Assembly (NCBI GenBank): GCA_919902985.1
Contig: CAKKSC010000008.1
Coordinates: 1-48,197, forward strand
Source of the DNA: Desulfuromonadales bacterium
GTDB lineage: Bacteria > Desulfobacterota > JAENJC01
Direction: 5' to 3'
Length of the DNA: 48,197 nucleotides
Shown: positions 13,386 through 14,585 of the stretch, one piece after another
Layout: every line of letters starts with the position of its first letter
Position numbering within the stretch: position 1 is the stretch's first letter
The notes under the pieces: model-generated
The model's database searches: none
The model's input: only the letters and a program-made list of their open reading frames with translations
What the model was told of the DNA's origin: nothing
Position numbers and translations under genes: made by a program

Positions 13386-14585
13386 ATGAATTTTAAATTT
13401 GAACTTCTAAAGAAAGGTACGTCTTCCAATGCCCGGCTGGGGAGGTTTTATACCAGGCACGGTGTGGTAAATACCCCTGTCTTCATGCCTGTAGGCACTG
13501 TTGCGACAGTCAAGGCCATGACGCCTCACGAGGCTAAAGACCTTGGGGCTGAAATAATCCTTGGAAACACCTACCACCTCATGCTCAGGCCTGGACATGA
13601 GATCATTCGCGAGCTTGGCGGTCTTCACAAGTTCATGGCATGGGACGGCCCTATACTTACAGACAGCGGCGGGTTCCAGGTATTCAGCCTTGGGGACCTC
13701 AGAAAGATAACGGAGGACGGGGTCTATTTCCAGTCCCACATAGACGGCGCAAAACATACCCTGACTCCTGAAAGCGCCATAGAGATACAGGAGGCCCTCG
13801 GCTCCGACATCATGATGATCCTGGATGAATGCACCCCCTATCCCGCAACCTTTGACTATGCCAAGTCTTCCATGGAGAGGACCCTGAGGTGGGGGAAGAG
13901 GTGCAGGGAGCATCAACTGCGTCCTCGCCCAGAGGGGACTGTCCCAGAATTACGGGCCGAAGGCCGTAGATTCGGGACTGTCCCCGGTAGTGAGGTTGAC
14001 CAGGCCCTTTTCGGCATAGTCCAGGGGAGCATGTATCCTGAGTTAAGGAAGATATCAGCTCAGGGAACTGTTGATACAGGTTTTGACGGGTACGCCCTTG
14101 GCGGGCTATCAGTAGGGGAGAGCAAGGAGGAGATGCACGAGATGATAGAGGTCTCTGTGCCCAATCTCCCGGAGGACAGGCCCAGGTATCTTATGGGTGT
14201 AGGTCTTCCAGAGGACCTTATAGAAGGAGTGAGTCGTGGGATAGACATGTTCGACTGCGTCATCCCTACGAGAAACGCCAGGAACGGGATGCTTTTTACC
14301 ACATTTGGGGTTATCCAGATAAAGCATTCAAGGTATATAAGGGACAGCTCTCCCATAGATTTAGAATGCGGCTGCTATACCTGCAAGCATTTCAGCAGGG
14401 CATATCTCAGACACCTTTACATGGCAAAGGAGATACTATCGTCTAGGCTCAATACAATCCATAACCTCTATTATTACCTGAACCTCATGAAGGGCGTCCG
14501 AGAGGCCTTGGAAGAAGACCGGTTCGAGAGGTTTTATAAGGAGTTTTACAGCATTAGGATAGCAGCAGAGATTACAGAGGATTAA
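13386..14585 (+). CDS. tgt: tRNA-guanine transglycosylase
   Basis: Tgt exchanges guanine 34 for preQ1 in tRNAs with GUN anticodons. Diagnostic segments are [29 protein letters not shown] (with a catalytic Asp), QALFGIVQG, the nucleophile region [14 protein letters not shown] and the zinc site [17 protein letters not shown]. The length is 399 residues against about 375 usually. The excess is an insert of about 20-27 residues before [11 protein letters not shown] (PEGTVPEL...FGTVPGSE), encoded by the 52-bp palindromic element. It is linked to queA in the same pathway. Confidence 0.96.
13934..13985. repeat. GGGACTGTCCC element, copy 2, in frame in tgt
   Basis: The 52-bp copy begins GGGGACTGTCCC, ends GGGACTGTCCCC and has a centre TACGGGCC-GAA-GGCCGTA that forms a strong hairpin. 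Both ends are read as Gly-Thr-Val-Pro. The frame differs from that of the first end in queA, and no stop occurs. Confidence 0.92.

Follow-up and report, generated by a model that had tools for sequence, protein, structure and literature searches.

A Dispersed Palindromic Element Is Read in Frame in tgt and in Other Conserved Enzyme Genes of a Desulfuromonadales Bacterium

RESULTS AND DISCUSSION

An Inserted Peptide in Tgt

A 52-bp palindromic element lies in frame in the tgt gene of this Desulfuromonadales bacterium as one of 28 full copies of a dispersed palindrome, which bears out the original prediction for this gene. We regard it as probable that the element is a non-autonomous hairpin mobilized by a transposase of the Y1 (IS200-like/TIRYT) type and tolerated in frame in flexible loops. 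The window that we analyzed is a stretch of 48,197 nt. Its tgt gene (13386..14585, + strand) encodes a tRNA-guanine transglycosylase of 399 aa (TIGR00430, 539 bits), and the frame is open throughout. The element, with the ends GGGGACTGTCCC...GGGACTGTCCCC, was located exactly at 13934-13985 on the + strand, where the ORF reads through it as residues 183-200 and gains ∼18 residues. The insert follows a long helix whose end is near RCRE and precedes QALFGIVQG, which contains the conserved strand ALFGIVQG. In the AlphaFold model (mean pLDDT 89.6), residues 185-202 are the only ones below 50, and the best PDB matches to the fold are Zymomonas TGT (TM 0.95 normalised by target). The insert is predicted to be a disordered, flexible loop in a protein whose remainder models confidently.

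The insert is present at the same position in Tgt of the sister species G002 and absent from Tgt of the sister G001, and its peptide was not found in the other aligned Tgt proteins of the phylum, which have short loops at that place. These comparisons show that the peptide is an insertion and not an ancestral part of the enzyme; the original prediction, which had named ancestry in Tgt of the whole phylum as its own refutation, came through this comparison. Between the genome under study (G000) and G002, both of which carry the insert, tgt has a dN of 0.048 versus a dS of 0.552, which points to a gene that stayed under purifying selection with the insert in place.

We note that intergenic GC-rich repeats (TAGGGGC...GCCCCTAC type) flank tgt on both sides, at window positions 13316-13366 and 15032-15085, and that G001 has a sequence resembling them at a further element site (L060).

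Copies, Subfamilies, and Reading Frames

The motif GGGACTGTCCC occurs 12 times in the window at ≤1 mismatch versus 0.9 expected, a number reached in none of 100 shuffles. Across the whole genome (2.13 Mb, 88 contigs), the exact 11-mer end motif is found 55 times versus 7 for the reversed control. Besides fragments, there are 28 full copies of 52-64 bp (15 of 60 bp, 10 of 59 bp, 2 of 52 bp, and 1 of 64 bp), with the consensus GGGGACTGTCCC-AGATTTACGGACG-n-AGCG-n-AGCGAAGTCGTAGAATC-GGGACTGTCCCC. The window holds two full copies in addition to that in tgt. One, of 60 bp, is in queA (12694..12753, + strand); the other (37396..37455, − strand) lies at the trpC/trpF junction, where it provides the stop codon of trpC and the stretch right before the trpF ATG, and is common to all three species of the genus. 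The tgt copy had been described as a shorter copy of the queA element. It is indeed the same element at 52 bp, but it belongs to another subfamily, AGAATTACGGGCC...GGCCGTAGATTC, and is not a shortened queA type. This subfamily also occurs at C81:13453 and in G001 (L117), and the same core is found in Nitrospirae (L121, L177).

As predicted, the frame at the first end differs between the two genes, being read as G|GGG ACT... in tgt and as GGG GAC TGC... in queA; the second end is read alike in both (GGG ACT GTC CCC). The accompanying claim that at least two frames are open also stands, since genic copies genome-wide use at least three, two on the element strand and at least one on the reverse strand. 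This openness is nothing special, with a mean of 3.29 open frames per copy versus 3.18 in shuffled copies, and we reject a special coding capacity of the element. Long ORFs span 14 of the 28 copies versus 67% of random positions, so genes are avoided by the element yet far from excluded.

Copies cluster locally: five pairs lie within 3 kb of each other versus 0.96 expected, a count that random placement matched in 17 of 5000 trials. Since queA and tgt are neighbors, this clustering explains their pairing better than targeting of one tRNA-modification pathway, and the other genic copies are in unrelated genes. In-frame copies were found in MnmG, CobJ, a HemY-type protoporphyrinogen oxidase, a TIGR03960/TIGR03936 radical-SAM protein, a CHAT/TPR protein, a GlpC-like CCG-domain protein, and a radical-SAM protein (L042) that is QueE-like by motif. 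This last protein falls far below the QueE cut-offs and was not counted as a queuosine enzyme. Element sequence also makes up the ends of trpC, of a murE-type ligase gene, and of a cbiG-like gene. A search of the window against Rfam gave no known RNA match, and a search for phage or plasmid carriage of the element gave no match.

On contig C9 of G000, five full copies and fragments are grouped around cobalamin biosynthesis genes (49.6-63.8 kb).

Replacement at queA and Other Sites

The queA gene (12226..13311, + strand) encodes S-adenosylmethionine:tRNA ribosyltransferase-isomerase (NF001140, 459 bits). Its copy of the element encodes QueA residues 157-176 (GDCPGFRDEAQRSRRIGTVP), between PPYI and RYQTV, a stretch of variable length among relatives, and the QueA structure model is weak at residues 151-198. 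The element is at the same queA position in G002 as in G000 and is missing from G001; its peptide was not found in other aligned QueA proteins of the phylum. The G001 loop has a different in-frame sequence, REKDEGGRMKDEST, at the element's site. The core of this insert, GATGAAGGCGGAAGGATGAAGGATGA, has 24 matches in three genomes at ≤3 mismatches versus 0 for reversed controls, which marks the G001 occupant as an unrelated dispersed repeat. The queA gene of G002 (L069) contains a further unrelated in-frame insert (SLSPLLQGEGKGGV/ATATSLSPLLQGEGKGGVWGVK) at another loop, after RTLEA. Within one genus, queA thus shows three distinct inserts, and two of these share a position.

In sister genomes, other small repeats also occupy the positions of the element. 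At the L042 site, the G001 occupant looks like a small palindrome for which no second copy was found at 3 mismatches; the queA replacement is thus, as far as repeat matching can tell, the only one that is another dispersed repeat. A broken copy (L065, G000:C28:19897-19985) lies in a mannose-1-phosphate guanylyltransferase-like gene, with its middle replaced by another repeat and the frame kept.

A 443-aa gene of G002 (C230:3306-3841) has two element copies that point in opposite directions. At the orthologous site of G000 (C9:52720-52799), a truncated copy lies beside a CCCCCAACCCCCTCTTTAGTAAAGAGGGG repeat, and the pair of sites suggests nested or replacing insertions.

Hairpin, Insertion Site, and Divergence

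The element strand folds as one hairpin in which the GGGGAC...GTCCCC ends pair, a T.T mismatch is conserved at position 7, and a purine is usually unpaired at position 13. The pairing is backed by covariation, with 97.8% of cells paired and double changes at 6 pairs; none of 500 shuffles was as high. A conserved hairpin with a mismatch is typical of ssDNA-type elements.

The original prediction had asked whether the insert borders show a target duplication and had raised a possible target-site preference near GGGGAC-like sequences; neither was borne out. A target duplication is absent, with no excess of matching flanks at k = 1 to 9 in the 28 copies. The GGGGAC-like sequences proposed as a preferred target are the element's own end; the flanks instead prefer A|element|G, with A at −1 in 24 and G at +1 in 21 of the 28 copies. 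Sites were compared across genomes by targeted searches, and a clean empty site with exact borders was not obtained because the flanks differ by ∼11% between species.

At shared sites, the element is 94.7% identical versus 88.4% for the flanks in twelve cross-species comparisons (Fisher p ∼3e-7), and copies that lie outside gene interiors likewise diverge little. The slower change of the element is likely due to hairpin constraint or to gene conversion between copies.

Y1 Transposases and the Origin of the Element

TIRtrons are Y1 genes bounded by inverted repeats with the motif GGGGWSAS (PMC3733652, PMC6006769). Terminal inverted repeats that start with GGGGAC, GGGGTC, or a close variant bound six of the seven Y1_Tnp genes of G000 and three of the five of G002; the Y1 genes on contigs C76 and C28 have GGGGACAG ends. 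The element resembles the TIR repeats and TIRtrons of TIRYT (Y1, mostly subclass 2.1; PMC3733652, PMC6006769) in sharing its genomes with such Y1_Tnp genes, in forming small families with TIR-type, paired, inverted ends, and in its right end, which read inward (GGGGACAG) fits GGGGWSAS. It differs in its left end, GGGGACTG, which does not fit, and in belonging to a genus without a Y1 gene that has the exact end. In addition, it has many in-frame copies in conserved enzymes, which the available text of these two papers does not describe for TIR repeats.

The TIRYT trait of a Y1 gene flanked by the same repeat was seen only in a Eubacterium MAG (RGIG3418, L152), whose Y1_Tnp gene has GGGGACTGTCCCC on both sides. 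No Y1 gene found in G000, G001, G002, G018, G057, or G045 has GGGGACTGTCCC at its flanks, and one, on C76, has a copy ∼0.9 kb away; the Y1 genes of G000 and of the five related genomes carry different TIRs or lack them. In G018, the element is present and no Y1 gene above threshold was found. A cognate transposase was likewise not found in G000, where MAG incompleteness could hide it. Among the 120 foreign element loci listed, there are two Y1 genes, one of them flanked by the element.

The GGGGAC/GGGGTC-type ends of the Y1 genes, together with the flanked Eubacterium gene, lead us to take the element as a probable passenger of Y1/TIRYT transposases. One strand of the 52-64-bp near-palindrome folds into a single long hairpin, and this non-autonomous element would be transferred as single-stranded DNA by a TIRYT-type Y1 HUH transposase, the product of Y1_Tnp genes with GGGGWSAS terminal inverted repeats. 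Insertion would proceed with no target duplication and with a preference for A|G junctions, and a copy landing in frame in the flexible loop of an enzyme would be tolerated and translated. Entry into tgt most likely preceded the split of G000 and G002, and purifying selection on the enzyme continued. The sequence data show the insertion and dispersal of the element, its covarying hairpin, the reading frame, the loop position, and the presence or absence in sister species; besides Y1 transposition itself, we infer that Tgt keeps its activity despite the loop, which would lack a function in its own right.

The absence from G000 of a Y1 gene with identical ends, and the other small repeats at the same places in sister genomes, would also suit a MITE of the classical kind, mobilized by a DDE transposase, or a repeat multiplied through errors of replication or repair, with GGGGAC ends that are TIRYT-like by chance. 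We consider this unlikely, as the target duplication of DDE-type MITEs is absent, the GGGGAC/GGGGTC end is found in most Y1 genes of the genus and the exact end on one Y1 gene elsewhere, and the hairpin with its conserved mismatch is of the ssDNA type. A yet more improbable reading is that the insert was recruited for function, the loop altering activity or partner binding of Tgt and QueA and being kept by selection in both queuosine enzymes. The occurrence of the element in two enzymes of one pathway and the high identity of shared-site copies relative to their flanks speak for it. However, that identity is explained equally well by hairpin constraint or gene conversion and extends to copies outside gene interiors, the Tgt loop is predicted to be disordered, the genic copies sit in unrelated enzymes, and G001 has a tgt without the insert and a queA with an unrelated repeat. 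For an ancestral Tgt peptide that resembles the queA segment by chance, we found no supporting point, and its absence from other Tgt of the phylum along with the 28 copies genome-wide refutes this origin.

Spread and Relation to Known Palindromic Elements

Most known cases of selfish palindromes within protein genes come from Rickettsia and a small number of REP-rich species. In the present case, a single type of element, bearing a Y1-type end, occupies in-frame positions in core enzymes of one deltaproteobacterial genus, and its core sequence recurs in Nitrospirae. Pairs of the 11-mer 20-50 bases apart were found in at least 120 stretches from many phyla, some of which resemble unrelated tandem arrays with the end in common. 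The inner core TTTACGG...CGTAGAA is present in Nitrospirae, Nitrospira, Omnitrophota, and other families of the bacterium's own phylum, and in Nitrospirae GWB2_47_37 the element type lies within ORFs matching NifEN, NadB, and MqnC. The observation in tgt is more general than could be seen from the window alone.

Among sister species, the same loops of these enzymes are variously occupied by the element, free of it, or filled by a replacement, a contrast that makes it directly testable with purified Tgt and QueA whether the peptide is tolerated, useful, or subject to a DNA-level constraint. The two unrelated families at one queA position in sister species suggest loops that are open to unrelated repeats. 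We tentatively raise the possibility, which we would not yet favor, that Y1/TIRYT-type miniature elements repeatedly add short peptides to conserved enzymes across phyla via permissive loops that are also entered by unrelated mobile repeats, the copies then changing more slowly than the surrounding enzyme DNA through hairpin constraint or gene conversion. If so, peptide-adding miniature elements would be a general means by which loops evolve in uncultured bacteria.

The element, which has a Y1/TIRYT-type end and occurs in a broad range of hosts, is a variant of the palindromic elements known from genes, namely, Rickettsia palindromic elements (RPE) and intragenic REPs. RPEs are palindromic mobile repeats found in frame in unrelated housekeeping genes (Ogata et al. 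2000, reviewed in PMC10969869), and the element shares with them its in-frame position in unrelated conserved genes, here those for QueA, Tgt, MnmG, CobJ, and the HemY-type and radical-SAM proteins. It differs in sequence, in its unrelated hosts, and in an end motif that links it to Y1 elements; instead of the CGTC-tagged end of RPE-4/RPE-6 and a rickettsial host, we find GGGG...CCCC ends and, for the sister G002, a Deltaproteobacteria groundwater MAG. With the REP/REPIN elements of RAYTs (PMC3116915), of which intragenic copies are reported in O. terrae and others (PMC3733652), it shares the form of a non-autonomous multicopy hairpin made of two inverted ends, with some copies intragenic. In contrast to these, the element has no GTAG/GTRG guide tetranucleotide at the hairpin foot, its copies beginning with GGGG, and its 11-bp end spans many phyla.

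Elsewhere in the window, a repeat pair GTCGGGTTTCGCGTTGCTCTACTCGACCTAC at 24213-24246 and 25147-25180 matches terminal repeats of the GTAG type that belong to a Y1 gene of G001 (L245).
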